Under the pieces are notes generated by a model that was not told the origin of the DNA, did not search any database, and saw only the letters and a list, made by a program, of their open reading frames with translations. Shown in pieces: positions 23,492-48,017 of a stretch of 59,414 nucleotides of DNA. Source of the stretch: a virus. How positions within the stretch are numbered: position 1 is the first letter of the stretch; every line of letters starts with the position of its first letter. Position numbers and translations under genes: made by a program. The DNA is taken from positions 1-59,414 of the IMG/VR virus record IMGVR_UViG_3300029923_000020; one strand, 5' to 3'.

Positions 23492-24147
23492 TAGATTTCA
23501 ACCTTGCTCATGATGTAGGCGAATGCGTCCCCGGCGTTGGTCAGCGGGTCTTCTTTGTCGAAGCCCTGCAAGCGCATCACGCGCTCCAGCTTGTCGGTGA
23601 CATCTTGGGAGCTTTCGACCGGGATGCGAAAGCGCATGATTTGGTGGGTTTGAAGTTTCGCCGTCGGCTCCGTTGGCGCTCCCAGCGGCACCAGCGAATC
23701 TTCTTCTAAGTCCAGACTGTCGAGGTCAATATTGACCGACGCGAAGATGTTTTGCATGGCTGCGTCATCGAACGGCATGAAGGTCGTCACGTCGGTGTCG
23801 AGGTTCAGCTCTTCGAGCAGTTTCGCCAGCGCTACCGTGTCGTCTTGACCGTAGCGGGCATTGTCCACCACACCGATCTGCTTCGCCTTGACGTCGTCGA
23901 TTTCGCCCAGGTTGTGAATCGGGACTTCGGTCAGGCCGACGCGAACCGCAGACTGCGCCCGGTGCTCGCCGCCGAGAATTTGAAGCGAGCCGTCAGCGAG
24001 GGTTCGCACGAGGATCGGCTTGAACATGCCCAGCTTGCGGACGGAGGCGTCGAGCTTCACTTCGGTATCCGGCGGGCAACTGTTCGTGTTCCACGGGTTT
24101 GGCTTGAGTGACTTTGGATTGACCGTCGAACTTTGGTTTGGCTTCAC
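23491..24147 (-). CDS. ParB-like protein 2
   Basis: A 218-residue second ParB/Srx-domain protein: PNPWNTNSCPPD, VRKLGMFKPILVR, and ILGGEHRAQSAVRVG (GGEHR replaces GHGRR of protein 1), then KQIGVVDNARYGQDD. It is only distantly related to protein 1, so the two probably have different roles, for instance one catalytic and one structural. It is the first gene of the cassette, and its promoter lies in the divergent region shared with the helicase. Confidence 0.8.
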   Translation of the reverse strand: MKPNQSSTVNPKSLKPNPWNTNSCPPDTEVKLDASVRKLGMFKPILVRTLADGSLQILGGEHRAQSAVRVGLTEVPIHNLGEIDDVKAKQIGVVDNARYGQDDTVALAKLLEELNLDTDVTTFMPFDDAAMQNIFASVNIDLDSLDLEEDSLVPLGAPTEPTAKLQTHQIMRFRIPVESSQDVTDKLERVMRLQGFDKEDPLTNAGDAFAYIMSKVEI

Positions 24148-24190
24148 TTGGTGGTTCCTTCATGGTGGTGGAACGGTTGGACGAATTGGC

Positions 24191-24217
24191 CTTATACTAG
24201 CGCCACTTATATTTCAA
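24191..24217 (-). promoter_or_regulatory. Divergent promoter region, cassette and helicase
   Basis: On the minus strand TTGAAA, a 15-base spacer and TATAAG would drive the ParB/ABC/GNAT cassette. On the plus strand TATACT at 24193-24198 lies 30 bases before the helicase ATG with only a weak -35. The two start regions overlap, so the units may compete. Confidence 0.5.
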
Positions 24218-24228
24218 GGCAATCGGAT

Positions 24229-25956
24229 ATGAAAAAGGTCACCATTGCTCACGCCGCTGTAAACGCCAAGTTGATCGACCCCAGCCGAGAGGTAAAACTT
24301 GAGGTTCAGCAAATCCTGTCCTACATGGTGCAGGGCGCCGAACAGACAAGCCGCTTCAAGACCTCTGGGTGGGACGGCCGCAGCTCGTTTCTCGACTTCA
24401 GGAATGGAACCTTCCCGGCTGGCTTCGTGCATCTGGTAAGCGCTCACCTTCAGCGGCGCGGCTACGAGTGCAACATCGTCAAGAAACCTCTACCGCCCGC
24501 CCTGGGCCCAGAGAGACCCATTGTCGACCCATTCCCATACAACCCCGACTACGACTACCAAGACCACACGGTTGAAAAGCTGCTGCGTCACGGGAAGATG
24601 ATCGCTCAAATCGCTACCGGCGGCGGCAAGTCGCGGATCGCCAAGCTGGTCTACGCCCGCATTCACCGGCCGACGCTCTTTCTCACCACGCGAAGCCTGC
24701 TGATGTATCAGATGAAGGACTCTTTTGAGACCGACATGGGTATCGAAGTCTCTGTGCTTGGTGACGGCCACTGGGGCACCAAAACGACCAACCCTGACGG
24801 CACCGTTACGACCTCTATCAACCGCATGACTGTCGGCATGGTGCAGACGCTCAACGCCCGGCTGGAAGTGCTGACCCTGCAAGGCGAGTTCGAAAAGGTC
24901 TATGACACGCTCATGACCAAAGAGAAGGCTGCGTTTGCTGCCAAAAAGACTGCGCTGAAAATGATGAAGGTCGACTCTGTTGAGTCCAGCCGTCTTCTGC
25001 GCGAGTTTGCCCTGACTCAAGAAAAAGAACGACCAGACCCTGAACGCATCAAGGCCGAGGCCCAACACCGCGTGACCAAGCAAGACGCGATTCGTGCGAA
25101 CACTATCGCCGTGCTGGGGAAATTCGAGGTCGTCATTCTCGAAGAGGCCCACGAGGCTTCCGGCGCCGGGTTCTACGGGATCATGAGTCATTGCGTGAAC
25201 GCCCACTACCGCCTGGCCCTGACCGCCACGCCGTTCATGAAGGACGACGAAGAGGCGAACATGAAACTCATGGCCGTGGCGGGCCCGGTCGGGATCAAGG
25301 TCACCGAGAAGATGCTGATCGACCGTGGCATTCTCGCCAAGCCTTACTTCAAATATCGGACGATCACTCTACCGGCCGAAAAACTCTACCGGTCCACCGC
25401 CTGGGCTCCTGCATACCGTCTGGGCATCGTCGAGTATGAGGCGCGCAATCAAGCCATTGTGCAGGAGTGTGCTGCTGCCAAGTCTTACGGGATCACCGCT
25501 ATGGTGCTGATTCAGCACAAGGCCCACGGCGAGACCTTGCTGAAGAAGATGGATGCTGCCGGGCTGCGAGCTGAGTTCATTTTCGGCGAAAGCGACCACG
25601 GAACCCGCAAAGCACAGTTGCGCAAACTTGCCGACGGCTCTATCGACGTGCTGATCGGTTCCACCATTCTCGACGTGGGTGTCGACTGCCCGGCCGTGGG
25701 CATGATTGTGCTGGCCGGCGGCGGCAAGGCTGAAGTCGCATTGCGCCAACGTATCGGCCGTGGGCTGCGCCGCAAGAAGACCGGGCCGAACATTTCCCTG
25801 GTCGTAGACTTCACCGATACGCAAAACGACCACCTACGCGGGCACTACCTGCAACGGCGCGCAATCGTCGAACACACCGAGGGGTTCGGCGAGAACGTGC
25901 TTGCGGCGAACAGTGACTTCAATTACGAAGCCCTTGGATTCAAGAAAGTGGCTTAA
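24229..25956 (+). CDS. SF2 DEAD/DEAH-box helicase
   Basis: A 575-residue superfamily 2 helicase of the type II restriction/UvsW/SSL2 group. Motif I is ATGGGKS (129-135), motif II is EEAH in VVILEEAHEA, motif III is LTATPF, and the C-terminal RecA domain ends in QRIGRGLRRK (motif VI). Residues 1-105 form an N-terminal DNA-binding part. The first residue of motif II is Glu rather than Asp, a tolerated variant. Likely roles are branch migration or replication-fork work in phage recombination. It is a single-gene unit followed by a terminator. Confidence 0.9.
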   Translation: MKKVTIAHAAVNAKLIDPSREVKLEVQQILSYMVQGAEQTSRFKTSGWDGRSSFLDFRNGTFPAGFVHLVSAHLQRRGYECNIVKKPLPPALGPERPIVDPFPYNPDYDYQDHTVEKLLRHGKMIAQIATGGGKSRIAKLVYARIHRPTLFLTTRSLLMYQMKDSFETDMGIEVSVLGDGHWGTKTTNPDGTVTTSINRMTVGMVQTLNARLEVLTLQGEFEKVYDTLMTKEKAAFAAKKTALKMMKVDSVESSRLLREFALTQEKERPDPERIKAEAQHRVTKQDAIRANTIAVLGKFEVVILEEAHEASGAGFYGIMSHCVNAHYRLALTATPFMKDDEEANMKLMAVAGPVGIKVTEKMLIDRGILAKPYFKYRTITLPAEKLYRSTAWAPAYRLGIVEYEARNQAIVQECAAAKSYGITAMVLIQHKAHGETLLKKMDAAGLRAEFIFGESDHGTRKAQLRKLADGSIDVLIGSTILDVGVDCPAVGMIVLAGGGKAEVALRQRIGRGLRRKKTGPNISLVVDFTDTQNDHLRGHYLQRRAIVEHTEGFGENVLAANSDFNYEALGFKKVA

Positions 25957-29414: not shown

Positions 29415-29741
29415 ATGCGCGGTATACAGGTTCAATATGCCGCCGCCCCGGCGAAGATAGGCCCAGGTCAAATTAGATACGCCATAGCCTCAAGTTTCGT
29501 CAATCATGAGGGCGGCTATCAAATGATAAAGCGTGCTACCGACGTTTCATTCTTTTTTAATAAACAGTCTGTCACTGAGTTAAGCGCTTTAGACCTTATT
29601 CTTAACGGATGCAGCGTTGGCTTTGTAATTCAAATCGACTCAACTCAAGTTACCGTCATTCGCTCTTTCGAAACTCCAGCGGATCAGATGGCTAAGATCG
29701 CGGATCAACCCGGGGAGTATGAAGATGGAGGAAGTTGGTGA
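29415..29741 (+). CDS. Small protein with C-terminal GSW (family member 1)
   Basis: A 108-residue protein with GGGAG before its ATG. It is beta-rich (IRYAIASSF, VGFVIQIDSTQVTVIRSF) and ends in EDGGSW. It is the first of ten plus-strand proteins that share a final G-[STA]-W. It overlaps the next gene, whose ribosome site (GGGGAG) lies inside its 3' end. Function unknown. Confidence 0.65.
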   Translation: MRGIQVQYAAAPAKIGPGQIRYAIASSFVNHEGGYQMIKRATDVSFFFNKQSVTELSALDLILNGCSVGFVIQIDSTQVTVIRSFETPADQMAKIADQPGEYEDGGSW

Positions 29742-30111
29742 TTATCCGCAAGATGATGGCGATGTTTGCGATTCGCCGTTGCTGATAGTCATGTCTAAAC
29801 ATGAAGTCAAGCCGGTGCGTGATCGCTTCTACGTTGTCGATGGTGATGGTGATATTTGCGGACTCAACGAAGAGCAAATCAGCGGCTTCCCTATTTTATC
29901 CTTTGCAGCAGTCGCCGCAAAAGATATTGAGCGACTTCACGGCGTGATAGTGAATGTCTCCATAGTCGAAGACGAAAAAGATCGTCTTCCTGCGAACGTA
30001 AAGTATCAGTGGCAAACCGTATGGAGACTTGGAGACCGGAAGCCGAAAAGAGGCTGCGGTAAACAGCCGGCACCTGCCGGTTCAACTCACTCTGATTTTG
30101 GAACTTGGTAA
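29725..30111 (+). CDS. Small acidic protein with C-terminal GTW (member 2)
   Basis: A 128-residue protein. I choose ATG 29725, seven bases after GGAG; ATG 29719 is in frame but too close. The N-terminus is acidic, the middle has FYVVDGDGDICGL and VIVNVSIVED, and the C-terminus is SDFGTW. Its stop overlaps the next start (TAATG). Function unknown. Confidence 0.6.
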   Translation: MEEVGDYPQDDGDVCDSPLLIVMSKHEVKPVRDRFYVVDGDGDICGLNEEQISGFPILSFAAVAAKDIERLHGVIVNVSIVEDEKDRLPANVKYQWQTVWRLGDRKPKRGCGKQPAPAGSTHSDFGTW

Positions 30112-30488
30112 TGGTCATGAACTCACGCCCACCGCCGTCCAGGCCGCAAACGTATGCGAAGAAGGCTTCGAATGCGTGTCTGGTCAACTACGGCCTGATT
30201 AAGCAGACACCCCAGGGTGAGGAACCCTTCTATGCCCTGGTTCAGCAGCACACCGCGACGACTATGTTCGGCGGTCACTTCTGGCAGGGTGTAGCCATAG
30301 ACACGGCCGCGAACCGCACGCGGCGATTTGAGACGGGCGCTGGCGCTCTTGAAGAGGTTCGCCTGTTCAGGGCTATCGGCGTGCGGGTCGATGCAATCGT
30401 GCGGGTCAACAGCACAGGGCAGCACCTGGAACACTGGGTAGCAAAAACAGAACAACCACCACAAGACGCAGACTCTGGGTCTTGGTAA
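30111..30488 (+). CDS. Small protein with C-terminal GSW (member 3)
   Basis: A 125-residue protein with a Pro/Arg-rich start, a beta-rich middle (EPFYALVQQH, FWQGVAIDT, VDAIVRVNST) and the ending DADSGSW. The stop is 16 bases from the next start, which has its own GAGGAAG site, so here the GSW codons are not needed for reinitiation. ATG 30117 is an alternative start. Function unknown. Confidence 0.6.
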   Translation: MVMNSRPPPSRPQTYAKKASNACLVNYGLIKQTPQGEEPFYALVQQHTATTMFGGHFWQGVAIDTAANRTRRFETGAGALEEVRLFRAIGVRVDAIVRVNSTGQHLEHWVAKTEQPPQDADSGSW

Positions 30489-30504
30489 GCGAGGAAGAAA
30501 CGAT

Positions 30505-30870
30505 ATGAACAAGATACTGGAAATTATGTTTGGCCGCACTGGCGGCAAAATCGTTATCAACGGGCAAAGCTACTCCGGGCGTAACGTATCCATTGCTGGC
30601 GGGCGCATCATAATCGACGGGAAAGAGCAACCTGGGTCTATCGCCATGGACCAGCATGTGAACGTCAATGTGGAGGGCTCTGTAGAGCGCCTGACGACTG
30701 CGAACGGCGAAGTCAATGTCGTCGGTGATGCTGGCTACGTTGAGACCACCAACGGCAACGTGCAGGCTGGACGCATCAGCGGCTCCGTGAAGACGGTGAA
30801 CGGCAATGTCGCAGCAGACACCATCGGCGGCTCTGTTTCCTCTATCAACGGGAACATCAAGAGGAAGTAG
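30505..30870 (+). CDS. Beta-helix (bactofilin/DUF4097-like) protein
   Basis: A 121-residue protein made of short repeated strands: VERLTTANGEVNVVGDAG, VETTNGNVQAGRI, VKTVNGNVAADTI, VSSINGNIKRK. Four or five turns of a V-x-T-x-N-G-x-V repeat suggest a beta-helix like bactofilins or DUF4097 proteins, which polymerise or form adhesive surfaces. It lacks the G-x-W ending of its neighbours. Its role among them is unknown; it might be a scaffold they bind (inference). Confidence 0.65.
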   Translation: MNKILEIMFGRTGGKIVINGQSYSGRNVSIAGGRIIIDGKEQPGSIAMDQHVNVNVEGSVERLTTANGEVNVVGDAGYVETTNGNVQAGRISGSVKTVNGNVAADTIGGSVSSINGNIKRK

Positions 30871-30872
30871 CG

Positions 30873-31262
30873 ATGGGCCATTTTGCAAGCGGTGGGCCGT
30901 CTACAGAAGAAGAGCGAAAAGCGCTCTGTAGGTGGCTGCTTGACGCACATGCTGAAGGCGATCTTATTAATCCAGATAGCTGGCATCTTCAGAGAAGCAT
31001 GATTCAGTATGATCGAATAGAGTTTGAGTTCGTTCATACTGAAGGGCATGAGGTGAAGATGGCTATGCCGATGGTCGAAGGGCGCAATTTAATCGAGGCT
31101 GCGTCTTATAATGTGAACATTGTTCGGCGCGGATTTGATATGAACACTGGCGAGGTGACAGTTACAAGAAACACTTACAGCGACAACGGTTCAAGGTCTT
31201 ACAAAGTCGAGCCCAAAAATGCGTCTTACAAGTCTGCGGACCCAGAATGGGGAGCTTGGTGA
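30873..31262 (+). CDS. Small protein with C-terminal GAW (member 4)
   Basis: A 129-residue protein with GAGGAAG before its ATG. It has an N-terminal helix with EEERKALCRWLLDAHAEG, a beta-rich middle, and ends DPEWGAW. Base composition here is richer in A+T than in the surroundings. The stop overlaps the next ATG (TGATG), and the GGGGAG encoding the tail doubles as that gene's ribosome site. Function unknown. Confidence 0.65.
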   Translation: MGHFASGGPSTEEERKALCRWLLDAHAEGDLINPDSWHLQRSMIQYDRIEFEFVHTEGHEVKMAMPMVEGRNLIEAASYNVNIVRRGFDMNTGEVTVTRNTYSDNGSRSYKVEPKNASYKSADPEWGAW

Positions 31263-31678
31263 TGTCATACAAATCAGACTGCGACTACGGCAATGAAGCG
31301 CGTGTAAAACTTATCACCCATCTGAACGCTTTGGCTGAAGATGATATTGAAATGACCGCCGCACTAAGTGAGTTGCTTGATGGACTCAACTGGTCGACTG
31401 GCGAGTTTGAGCGAAGGAGGGCCGAAGGTGATTCGTTCGTGTGCATGACGACGCTCTTTCATAAGGACGGAAAGAGCATGGTCAAATATTTCGACTATGA
31501 GTGTGAACACCCTTTGCCAAGTCAGAGCTTTTTTGGTGATATTTTCGTTCGCCCTATGCGACCCGGTGGCATTTCGATCACCTACAGCATGAAGCAGCTT
31601 GAGCGGTTCTGCCTTGAGCGAAGAGAAGCCCGCGAAGAGGTCGCGAGAGCGGCGAACCCGGGGTGGGCAGGCTGGTAG
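31262..31678 (+). CDS. Small protein with C-terminal AGW (member 5)
   Basis: A 138-residue helical/beta protein, starting in a TGATG overlap and ending NPGWAGW, a variant of the shared ending. It is followed by a terminator, so it closes the first transcription block of the family. Function unknown. Confidence 0.65.
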   Translation: MSYKSDCDYGNEARVKLITHLNALAEDDIEMTAALSELLDGLNWSTGEFERRRAEGDSFVCMTTLFHKDGKSMVKYFDYECEHPLPSQSFFGDIFVRPMRPGGISITYSMKQLERFCLERREAREEVARAANPGWAGW

Positions 31679-31691
31679 AGCAGATAAAGAA

Positions 31692-31711
31692 AAAGCCCGG
31701 TGAGGGGCTTT
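31692..31711 (+). terminator. Terminator after first G-x-W block
   Basis: AAGCCC, a short loop and GGGCTT form a compact hairpin 14 bases after the AGW gene. The T-run is short, so strength is uncertain. Confidence 0.55.
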
Positions 31712-32034
31712 GTGCTGTGACGGTGGTTGGTTCACACCCTTACCTGCGTCGTGATGATCGACCTTCCCGTCACCGGGTGCTCCTGACCATCAACACGTCT
31801 TACTGGGATTCTCCCGGCACCCAGGGCCAGACTCCATTTACAGCAGAACGGTGGTCGCTACCCGAACGGGCGCATCATTAAGCCATCTGCCGCACCATCT
31901 TCTGTATTTCCAGCGGCATCTTAAACGGCTGGACCTGCACCCGCTACACAGACCTGGACAAGTCGAGGGGCGCAGCTTGTCGATGTGCAGCTCACACGTA
32001 TGCGGCTGACTTGCCGAGGATACCAAATCACGGG
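31712..32034. other. Gap without a convincing gene
   Basis: About 320 bases. Short open frames exist on both strands but none has a ribosome site and family-like sequence together. It separates the two G-x-W gene blocks and ends at the tRNA terminator. Confidence 0.5.
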
Positions 32035-32062
32035 CAAAAAGAAACCCACCGAAGCGGGTTTC
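32035..32062 (-). terminator. Terminator of the tRNA unit
   Basis: On the minus strand GAAACCC, a loop GCTTCG and GGGTTTC are followed by TTTTTG. It lies about 75 bases after the 3' end of the tRNA-Asn. Confidence 0.8.
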
Positions 32063-32138
32063 TGACCTCTTTAATCACCTTTGCCGAGTATGGTTACCGG
32101 TGACCGGGAGTCATCCCGACGCGCACCAAGGCGTTGAT

Positions 32139-32214
32139 TGGCTGGCAAGTCTGGATTCGAACCAGAGACCGAACGGTTAACAGCCGTTTGCTCTACCAAC
32201 TGAGCTACATGCCA
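32139..32214 (-). tRNA. tRNA-Asn (GTT), CCA encoded
   Basis: A full cloverleaf read from 32214 down: acceptor stem of seven pairs with one T-T mismatch, D arm with AGCTCAGTTGGTAGAGC, anticodon stem AACGG/CCGTT with loop CTGTTAA (anticodon GTT), T arm TCTGGTTCGAATCCAGA, discriminator G and encoded CCA. It lies antisense to the surrounding plus-strand genes, with its own terminator. It may supplement host Asn AAC/AAU decoding, or be a remnant of gene uptake. Confidence 0.93.
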
Positions 32215-32416
32215 AAATAAGCCCCTGCCGCTATTTGTCCCTAAAGCGTTTGCCCCTACCTGGGAACAGGGTTTGTGCAGCGATTCGCTCGACACTGTCA
32301 CTAGGTGCAGTCGGTCGCCCACGAAACGAATAGTGCCAGCGATGAATTTGCTTGGCAAGCACTTTCTCCAAGAGCGCTTCGATAAACTTCACATACACAC
32401 CAAAGGGCTGAAGACC

Positions 32417-32728
32417 ATGTATTGCGGAACGATTGAGGCTGACAAGCTGTTTGTAGTGCCTGCGTGGCTAACCGATAGGCCCGGGCCGCTGTTCTACGTT
32501 GCGTTGCCGCTTGGCTACTCCCTTCAGCGCGGCAACAACTTTGCCTCTTACACTGCCGGTCTCACCTCTCTGGATAGCGCCCTGGTCGAGTATCAGAAAC
32601 GCATTGACGGCGGGTGGCCGCTGTTCGGCGTGATTCAGGTCACTGACAGCGGAGGCAAGGTGATTGAGCGCAATGAAGAGCCGGTGACGGCCGAGCTTGT
32701 CCCTCGCAAGGACTTTGGCACATGGTGA
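32417..32728 (+). CDS. Small protein with C-terminal GTW (member 6)
   Basis: A 103-residue protein with AAAGGG nine bases before ATG 32417; ATG 32342 is an in-frame alternative adding 25 residues. It has beta strands with LFVVPAWL and PLFYVALPLGYS and ends RKDFGTW. It opens the second block of the family, and its last codons overlap the next ATG (ATGGTGA). Function unknown. Confidence 0.6.
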   Translation: MYCGTIEADKLFVVPAWLTDRPGPLFYVALPLGYSLQRGNNFASYTAGLTSLDSALVEYQKRIDGGWPLFGVIQVTDSGGKVIERNEEPVTAELVPRKDFGTW

Positions 32729-33117
32729 TTCCATTTGGCACACTTGAGAACGCGAAGACGGTCATCGTCAATTGGCTTCTTGAGCGCTCGCCGAAAGAGC
32801 ACTGGCGGCAGCATGGTATGGACTCTCTTCTCTATGCCCCGGCCTGGCATGTTGAAGAATATGGCGAAGAGGATTATGCGGACGATGGCGATAAGAACTT
32901 TCGCATCTACGCAATCAAAGACGCTTCTGTAGATGGCGTTCTATCCGGCCGTGTTCGTGTCGTGTCTGATCACAGTGATGAGCAAATTCTGTCTATTGAG
33001 CCTTATTCGGCTAATTTCGAGCTTAGCTACCACCAAAAGAGGTTTTTTGAACTCTGCAAAGCGTCAGAGCCAGTTGAGGCAGTAAAATCCGATAATCCTG
33101 AATTTGGGAGCTGGTGA
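32722..33117 (+). CDS. Small protein with C-terminal GSW (member 7)
   Basis: A 131-residue acidic protein with an N-terminal helix (TVIVNWLLERSPKEHWRQH), beta strands in the middle, and the ending NPEFGSW. The codons GGGAGCTGGTGATG both encode the ending and supply the next gene's ribosome site. Function unknown. Confidence 0.65.
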   Translation: MVIPFGTLENAKTVIVNWLLERSPKEHWRQHGMDSLLYAPAWHVEEYGEEDYADDGDKNFRIYAIKDASVDGVLSGRVRVVSDHSDEQILSIEPYSANFELSYHQKRFFELCKASEPVEAVKSDNPEFGSW

Positions 33118-33488
33118 TGGACATCATCAAAGAGCTTTGCGCATTTCTGCCTAAAGAGAACGGTCGTGATGCGTGGAGCAGGTTCAACATGCGCGAATAC
33201 CTGTCCATCACGATGTGGATACAGATAGACAAGCGCCCTGGCCCAAATAAAGCCTACTACAGCTTCTTTCTCGGCACGACAAGCCCGGATTGGCCCGGGG
33301 TGTTCGAAGTTCGCACAAATTGGGATGCTGACAAGGTTGTGGGCATCTACTTCTCATATCCGGCAACATTGACCGCTGAACTTGCTGCGAAACAGGCTTT
33401 GTTGTTCGATTTGACGTTCACTAAGGACATTGTCAGCCGTCTGATCAGGGCAACCATAATGTCGTATCCAGACGCCGGGAGTTGGTGA
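33117..33488 (+). CDS. Small protein with C-terminal GSW (member 8)
   Basis: A 123-residue protein. Its opening (MDIIKELCAFLPKENGRDAW) resembles the first helix of member 7 (helix then W), hinting at paralogy. The middle is beta-rich (AYYSFFLGTT, VFEVRTNW, VVGIYFSYPA), and it ends YPDAGSW. The stop overlaps the next start. Function unknown. Confidence 0.65.
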   Translation: MDIIKELCAFLPKENGRDAWSRFNMREYLSITMWIQIDKRPGPNKAYYSFFLGTTSPDWPGVFEVRTNWDADKVVGIYFSYPATLTAELAAKQALLFDLTFTKDIVSRLIRATIMSYPDAGSW

Positions 33489-33811
33489 TGGGGCTTAATC
33501 TGGAGTTTTTCAGCTTTCCTTGTGGTAAGCCGCAGACCGTCGACAAACTTTTTTACGTCGTTCGGCGCACAAACCCAGGCTCACCGACAATCTACGAAGC
33601 CGTTCGTGAGAACGTGAAAAATGCCGCAGACCGATGGGCAACCTATGAGCAGGCTACGACTATGGCGAGCGCATTCAAGACATTCTACAAGGCCGAACTC
33701 GACGGTATCGTGATGGTTGATAAGCGCGGCGATGTGACCTTCTTCGACCTGCCGGGCGTGAGCTATGTGCAGACGCCGGGTTTGGATTACGCAGACGCCG
33801 GGAGCTGGTAA
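33488..33811 (+). CDS. Small protein with C-terminal GSW (member 9)
   Basis: A 107-residue protein with DKLFYVVRRTNPG near the start, a central helix with EQATTMASAFKTFYKAE, a strand GIVMVDKRGDVTFF, and the ending DYADAGSW. The layout matches member 10 (FYIARK, helix, IVEV strand), so the two look like distant paralogues. Function unknown. Confidence 0.65.
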   Translation: MGLNLEFFSFPCGKPQTVDKLFYVVRRTNPGSPTIYEAVRENVKNAADRWATYEQATTMASAFKTFYKAELDGIVMVDKRGDVTFFDLPGVSYVQTPGLDYADAGSW

Positions 33812-34131
33812 TGAAAACCCGTATTCCGATGAACCTGGCGCCTGGTGCCAAACCTCGCTTCTACATCGCCCGCAAGGTGAGCGATTGGGGAGAAGGTGTT
33901 GATCCGCCATATGTGTCTGTAATGGACGTAGACAGGGTCTGGTCTCACAACATTAGCTCTCTTCTGCCTCAAATCAGAAAGTTAGTTGAGAACTGGGATC
34001 ACGTCACCAATATCGTCGAAGTGCGCGCCGCCCAGACCGGAAGCGAAGAATACGAGCGCCTTTGGACAATTCACGACATACCGACCCTGTCTTTCGAGAT
34101 AGGCCCGCACGAAGACCTTGGAACATGGTAA
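33811..34131 (+). CDS. Small protein with C-terminal GTW (member 10)
   Basis: A 106-residue protein starting in a TAATG overlap. It has PRFYIARKVSDWG, a helix (LLPQIRKLVENW), a strand NIVEVRAAQ, and the ending HEDLGTW. The next gene starts 20 bases away with its own AGAGGAAA, so the GTW codons serve no visible reinitiation role. Function unknown. Confidence 0.65.
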   Translation: MKTRIPMNLAPGAKPRFYIARKVSDWGEGVDPPYVSVMDVDRVWSHNISSLLPQIRKLVENWDHVTNIVEVRAAQTGSEEYERLWTIHDIPTLSFEIGPHEDLGTW

Positions 34132-34150
34132 AGCACAGAGGAAACACCTA

Positions 34151-34405
34151 ATGAGCACTTCTAATTTTGTTGTTGATATTCAAGACAGTGATATGGGCAT
34201 CTGCGTGATGGTTGCCACCAAAGAGCATTACGACGCGGAGGGCGGCTTTGACTGCGTTCACATGAGCGAATCTGTAGAGCCGGTCTGGCCCAAAGAGTAT
34301 GAAATGGACGAACTTGCTGAAGCCTGCTTTTTGATCGGCGAAGAGAGTGATCTTTCGACCGTAAAGGAAGTATTTTCCGGCGCTGGGTTTATTTTACTCC
34401 CTTGA
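34151..34405 (+). CDS. Small acidic protein
   Basis: An 84-residue acidic protein following the G-x-W run but lacking that ending (it stops FILLP). It has strands (NFVVDIQ, ICVMVATK) and an acidic helix with EMDELAEACFLIGEE. Function unknown. Confidence 0.6.
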   Translation: MSTSNFVVDIQDSDMGICVMVATKEHYDAEGGFDCVHMSESVEPVWPKEYEMDELAEACFLIGEESDLSTVKEVFSGAGFILLP

Positions 34406-47564: not shown

Positions 47565-48017
47565 CTACCATGCCCCTTCTACGCCGTCGTCGCCAATTAC
47601 AACTTCGCTTTCAGGGGTGTTGCGGTCGGGCGGTGGCGGCAGTGCTGCCAGGTTGTCGTCAGCCTCAACGAACACCTCGCCTTTGCCCAAGTCTTCCATG
47701 CTCGAATCACTCCAACAGAGCAAGAAGTCCTGATAGTCACCCAGCGCAGCAGAATACCGGCCGTAAGTCTCGCCGCTGTTAGGGTCGGGGACCCATGAAT
47801 CATCCGAGCGGTTGCGGATTTCTAGGGCATAGAGCGGCCAGTATTCGGCGTCCATGTTATCCGGCGCGACGACCTTGCCGAGCCATTGAATCACCACGCG
47901 AACCTTGCCGTTATCGTAGACTTTCATTTCCACGTAACCAGGGTCTTTGCGCAACTCTACCCACTGGGCTTTTTCGATGGGCGCGCCGTCGCGGTCGTAG
48001 TAGCGGGTCTTAGACAT
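47565..48017 (-). CDS. Protein with C-terminal GAW (distant family member 11)
   Basis: A 150-residue acidic protein starting at ATG 48017 (GGAGACC ahead). It is beta-rich (VEMKVYDNGKVRVVIQWLG) and ends GVEGAW, the same G-[STA]-W ending as ten plus-strand proteins 13-18 kb away. No gene follows its stop; a terminator does. Function unknown. Confidence 0.6.
   Translation of the reverse strand: MSKTRYYDRDGAPIEKAQWVELRKDPGYVEMKVYDNGKVRVVIQWLGKVVAPDNMDAEYWPLYALEIRNRSDDSWVPDPNSGETYGRYSAALGDYQDFLLCWSDSSMEDLGKGEVFVEADDNLAALPPPPDRNTPESEVVIGDDGVEGAW

Follow-up and report, generated by a model that had tools for sequence, protein, structure and literature searches.

The capsid targeting sequence (CTS) of bacteriophage T4 is N-terminal and is cut off by the prohead protease, and both the single-stranded DNA-binding protein (SSB) of E. 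coli and gp2.5 of phage T7 have an aromatic last residue. The internal proteins of the T-even phages are highly diverse, with a conserved CTS common to all (PMC3012670), and the acidic tails of E. coli SSB (SSB-Ct), T7 gp2.5, and T4 gp32 are flexible C-terminal segments that contact other replication proteins (PMC5686142, PMC9917605). Here, a short ending of the type Gly-(Ser/Thr/Ala)-Trp is described on eleven small proteins encoded by the virus record IMGVR_UViG_3300029923_000020 of IMG/VR, a partial record of 59.4 kb that was analyzed over its whole length (59,414 nucleotides; hereafter, the window), and, in spellings particular to each lineage, on unrelated proteins of related phages. The pattern is best read as a C-terminal tag which very probably serves a shared reader of some kind, capsid loading and proteolysis included.

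This tag behaves as a sorting or docking signal at a protein terminus does, yet it fails the defining feature of the T4 CTS, an N-terminal position, and that of SSB-Ct, whose carrier is SSB itself. It is formed by the last three to seven residues of the protein, ends in Trp or Phe, and has its best-conserved carriers in replication and recombination operons, all of which set it apart from the CTS. What the two have in common is a short terminal tag that recurs on small, highly diverse proteins of a phage (PMC3012670), the carriers here being otherwise unrelated in sequence in each of the four genomes compared. With SSB-Ct, the tail is found on one protein and is read by many partners, whereas here many unrelated proteins have the tail; the SSB homologs of 22 related genomes possess acidic, Leu-rich tails without the tag, and the proteins with the tag are members of different families. 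The degrons of the ssrA/ClpXP system are likewise short C-terminal peptides on unrelated proteins, but the present tag is encoded in each gene, varies with lineage, and lacks the -LAA or -AA end, terminating instead in Trp or Phe, or in Trp-Ala or Trp-Ser in the phages nickie and hairong. Conserved gene-boundary sequences and overlapping start-stop junctions in phage operons also place a short, conserved stretch where genes end, and it may include a ribosome site; in this case, however, it is the amino acids that are kept and not the DNA, as judged by codon use. No earlier description of such a tag was found in the open literature, most subscription journals and preprints lying outside that coverage.

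Ten of the tagged proteins of the window are encoded on the plus strand in a single cluster: 29415..29741 (108 aa, ending EYEDGGSW), 29719..30111 (130 aa, THSDFGTW), 30105..30488 (127 aa, QDADSGSW), 30873..31262 (129 aa, ADPEWGAW), 31247..31678 (143 aa, ANPGWAGW), 32273..32728 (at most 151 aa, PRKDFGTW), 32722..33117 (131 aa, DNPEFGSW), 33114..33488 (124 aa, SYPDAGSW), 33482..33811 (109 aa, DYADAGSW), and 33811..34131 (106 aa, PHEDLGTW). The eleventh, at 47565..48017 on the minus strand, specifies a protein of 150 aa that ends DDGVEGAW. All of these open reading frames (ORFs) and their endings are present as the original prediction, made from the letters of the window, had listed them. Endings of the form [GA][STAG]W close 11 of the 97 genes called in the window with a simple caller of our own, where 0.065 would be expected from composition (Poisson P ~2e-21), and only one of its 400 other ORFs with 40 aa or more. 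Within 29415-34405, the tag is found on 10 of 12 called genes, the untagged ones being 30505-30870 and 34118-34405. None of the ten cluster proteins gave a convincing match to Pfam or PHROGs. Neither a scan of viral contigs, in which the 31247..31678 protein was among those without a relative, nor tblastn of phage records found direct relatives of the window carriers.

The genes for a terminase, portal, scaffold, major head protein (phrog_212), and tape measure, together with those for two ParB-like proteins, ABC-type ATPases, and a UvsW-like helicase (24133..25956, plus strand), place the window, on gene content, as a fragment of a siphophage akin to Salmonella phage SSU5, Pseudomonas phage nickie, Stenotrophomonas phage BUCTxx99, and several Rhizobium phages, with genomes of 100-120 kb. 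It is far from all named relatives; the nearest helicases are ~60% identical and DNA-level matches span only ~1% of the query. The helicase gene is a conserved landmark which the variable tagged cluster adjoins in the window, in BUCTxx99, and in contig G003. Relatives of the helicase and all or most of ~30 related records formed the clade set, in which genes were called by a simple script. These calls are heuristic with often uncertain starts, many of the counts that follow come from uncultured contigs, and some of the genomes are closely related, so that the counts are not independent.

Across the clade, Trp is the most enriched of all C-terminal residues (184 of 3159 genes against 40 expected), and where it is terminal, Gly is 7-fold enriched at position -3, Trp 15-fold at -4, and Ser 4.5-fold at -2. 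The ending [GA][STA]W closes 93 of the 3777 genes called, compared with just 35 among 17,778 other ORFs. The same C-terminal count returned nothing comparable from the genomes of T4 and SPO1. Enrichment in related phages, on which the original prediction had staked itself, was strong, but the motif it had offered, [DE]xG[STA]W, proved too narrow, since the tag is a family of lineage-specific endings from which NFGRF, GxWA, and VTPW would escape. The metagenomic contigs favor WGSW or FGSW. In BUCTxx99, YGxW closes ten genes (P 9e-30), nine of them consecutive, with NYGDW-like ends, at 27.3-30.1 kb, where the deposited annotation has coding sequences too. Rhizobium phage RHph_N1_10 has [FY]GRF (NFGRF) on eight genes (P 1e-17) and only one called gene with a terminal Trp, and the endings of RHph_X66 and B1VFA are FGAF, FGGF, YGRF, and the like. 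With nickie and hairong, the spelling is GxWA or GxWS (P 5e-10 and 8e-17, respectively), while contig G003 combines a VTPW cluster with FGAW and WASW. SSU5 has two tagged proteins, both with WATW, whereas WGSW and WGTW are the endings of their orthologs in Escherichia phage Cyrano. The cultured phages with the pattern, independent of metagenomic data, are BUCTxx99, ANB28, RHph_N1_10, RHph_X66, B1VFA, nickie, hairong, SSU5, and Cyrano. A second Trp-ending flavor, approximately D-x-P-x-[ST]-x4-W (e.g., DIPTSMVTPW, DKPVTPGAAW, DVPMTTDDAW), was observed on other small genes of contigs G003 (80.7-82.4 kb), G014, G018, G022, and G023.

The comparison of orthologs shows that individual families change their tag with lineage. 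Members of the WGR-domain family (PF05406) end in WGSW or near variants in ten contigs, in NFGRF in RHph_N1_10, and in YGRF in RHph_X66. A family with a GGEEF-like motif ends in FGSW, FGTW, or FGAW in most contigs and in NFGRF or LFGAF in Rhizobium phages, the Phe-Gly of the tag being among its four invariant alignment columns. The protein encoded at 47565-48017 has orthologs in at least 12 related phages, to which it is 20-46% identical and nearly all of which are tagged; the tag Trp is again one of four invariant columns, and the member from nickie ends AGGWS, which is the spelling of nickie itself. Proteins with the ExoX-like_C domain (PF20600) end in WGSW, WGAW, WGAF, or similar. When genome labels were shuffled, non-homologous pairs from the same genome that have an aromatic end and share at least three of their last four residues fell from the 176 observed to a mean of 66 (maximum 93 in 200 shuffles), a result that supports a concerted change of tags within each genome.

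The location of the tag within proteins and genomes was also considered. In an AlphaFold2 model built with ten sequences, the 47565-48017 protein was predicted to have a confident domain (residues 1-120) and a 30-residue tail (121-150), mostly with a predicted local distance difference test (pLDDT) value below 50, which is disordered and ends in the tag, as in SSB-Ct. Of the two families modeled, it is the only one with a clear disordered tail; that with the GGEEF-like motif has a long helix directly before the tag. Fold searches with both models returned no solved fold at E <= 0.001. The carriers are generally small, variable, and on average acidic. None of the 304 genes of the conserved head-tail module is tagged, compared to 108 of 2029 other genes (P 4e-7). 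Two conserved operon slots are tagged in several lineages, one between primase and ligase and the other after SbcC near RuvC and NrdA. The former holds a tagged WGR protein and a tagged neighbor in RHph_N1_10, and in Cyrano a tagged 260-aa protein whose relatives were detected only in SSU5-like phages; the latter is tagged in Cyrano and nickie, with two consecutive tagged genes in nickie. The SSU5-like phages have tags only at these two replication/recombination slots.

Chance, paralogy, and DNA-level coupling were each tested as the cause of the shared ending and rejected. The last of these would make the tag a by-product of DNA, its codons doubling as the Shine-Dalgarno sequence and overlapping start codon for the gene that follows, or marking a junction at which genes are shuffled. 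Such an overlay does occur, a GGAG, GAGG, or AGGA core lying within 31 of 104 tags and an overlapping start codon in 35, and the VTPW codons of contig G003 can hold a GTG start. The original prediction had likewise noted that tag codons may form the next ribosome site, which holds for part of the window only: a GGAG-like core is present in 5 of its 11 tags and a start overlaps the stop in 5, whereas the genes ending at 30488 (Ser encoded by TCT) and 34131 both stop with TAA and have no overlapping start. In the clade, 69 of the 104 tags are without an overlapping start, every one of the six Ser codons occurs among the 39 GSW tags (AGC 13, TCA 7, AGT 7, TCG 6, TCT 5, and TCC 1), and all four Gly codons and all three stops are employed, which shows that selection acts on the peptide and that translational coupling is an occasional overlay rather than the cause. 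Orthologs retain the residues with different codons and without the DNA pattern, the reverse of what the original prediction had named as its refutation, and the NFGRF and WGSW spellings have no common DNA pattern; an origin in DNA is accordingly very improbable. A scan of IMG/VR for a DNA pattern gave single, scattered matches among the matches listed, which carry no weight here. Little more than a slim chance of the same order is given to common descent, by which the carriers would be diverged paralogs with the tag as their last recognizable remnant. The similarly sized genes in tandem clusters of the window and BUCTxx99 are what this would produce, but once the last eight residues were removed no significant pair was found within the window, BUCTxx99, RHph_N1_10, or nickie; the suspected paralogy of the proteins ending at 33488 and 33811, and of those at 32722 and 33117, fell away with this, no pair in the set being better than E = 0.16. 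Several distinct conserved families, including those with WGR and ExoX-like_C domains, are tagged, and descent alone does not account for the switching of tags between lineages.

Two further explanations accept a tag but assign it a different reader. Capsid loading, the main rival, would have the carriers packaged in the head and injected with the DNA, with a scaffold, portal, or capsid protein as the reader. It owes this standing to the T-even internal proteins, which are likewise diverse defense proteins with only the conserved CTS in common (PMC3012670), much as the orphan cluster of the window has only its tag in common, and the small size and variability of the carriers would suit it. The tag is C-terminal, however, and its conserved carriers reside in replication and recombination operons; it is missing from the head-tail module (although the internal proteins of T4 need not be encoded there) and from the scaffold protein of the window, and the carriers are acidic on average, unlike basic proteins packaged with DNA. 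On balance, capsid loading is considered unlikely. Still less probable is a turnover signal, read by a host or phage protease or adaptor, or shielding from it, that would set the lifetime of early proteins. A C-terminal position in a disordered tail would be appropriate for this, and the same phages often place a ClpXP-like -AA on many other proteins. Nevertheless, the spelling follows host group in no obvious way, WG[ST]W being found in an Escherichia phage and in metagenomic contigs, and we know of no bacterial degron with a Gly-containing ending that terminates in Trp or Phe.

The reading preferred here, to which we give about an even chance, is that of a C-terminal docking motif for a reader at phage DNA or at the replication-recombination machinery. 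The motif would be a C-terminal short linear motif, aromatic-Gly-small/any-Trp or Phe-COOH, usually preceded by acidic or aromatic residues and placed at the tip of a flexible tail or linker. Its carriers are numerous, unrelated to one another, non-structural, and for the most part small. We infer that in each phage one binding partner would recognize the C-terminal aromatic residue and recruit the carriers; as its pocket drifts, all tags of that phage would drift along, giving each lineage its own spelling. A motif that stays at the free C-terminus, is attached to unrelated domains, and changes its spelling jointly throughout a genome is the pattern expected of a shared reader. Phage DNA or the replication-recombination machinery would be the likeliest site of recruitment because two operon slots are tagged in several lineages and because WGR and ExoX-like_C domains are among the tagged families. 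Of the functions that had been suggested from the window, a docking signal for a common partner is therefore favored by the concerted, lineage-specific tags, with a sorting tag or a degradation signal also retained.

Several observations weigh against docking. No partner has been found, a presence/absence screen having given no usable candidate, and binding itself is what we infer. For most of the tagged proteins of the window, which are orphans, no connection with DNA is known; in BUCTxx99, both replication slots are untagged and most of the tags belong to the variable cluster close to the helicase, as in the window; and contig G024 has no tags, though it shares the core genes. The residue at -2 is loose, endings such as VTPW and GEVW fit the core poorly, and other C-terminal readers, whether a proteolysis adaptor or the capsid, would yield much of the same pattern. 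In the presence/absence screen of families seeded from BUCTxx99 and G018, PhoH alone was present in all other full-length relatives examined and missing from precisely SSU5 and G024. Cyrano lacks it as well, and it is not claimed as the partner, given that the untagged T4 and SPO1 match too. A family with an acidic C-terminus that was initially suspected to be SSB-like was recognized as the ribonucleotide reductase small subunit.

A more tentative proposal, which we hold at somewhat less than even chance, is a tag-and-hub system: each phage would put its own C-terminal aromatic code on unrelated proteins of accessory function and DNA metabolism, from several to a dozen in number, and a co-evolving receptor would gather them at the replisome, phage DNA, or capsid, with the lineage spelling perhaps separating the proteins of co-infecting relatives. 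By its sequence, the tag makes a large number of orphan phage genes accessible together, grouping proteins that are otherwise without common features. Concerted, lineage-specific spelling over unrelated genes is unusual, and it allows the co-evolution of tag and reader to be tested directly in cultured phages (BUCTxx99, RHph_N1_10, nickie, SSU5, and Cyrano). The within-genome C-terminal count can be applied to annotated phage genomes to establish the frequency of such codes.

A different C-terminal pattern was noted in part of the clade. An -AA end closes 11-24 genes per genome, against ~2 expected, in RHph_N1_10, RHph_X66, B1VFA, G002, G003, G005, G018, G022, G023, and G032, with homologs of ligase, DnaQ, and RuvC among its carriers; it resembles a ClpXP-type signal, and the window, nickie, BUCTxx99, T4, and SPO1 lack it. 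Within the cluster of the window, the untagged gene at 30505-30870 (plus strand) has a repetitive sequence with NGN repeats and belongs to phrog_3163, a PHROG of unknown function. The cluster also contains a tRNA-Asn (GTT) gene on the minus strand at 32139-32214; over 84 bp, the sequence there is an 87% match to the tRNA-Asn region of Limnohabitans phage DC31.

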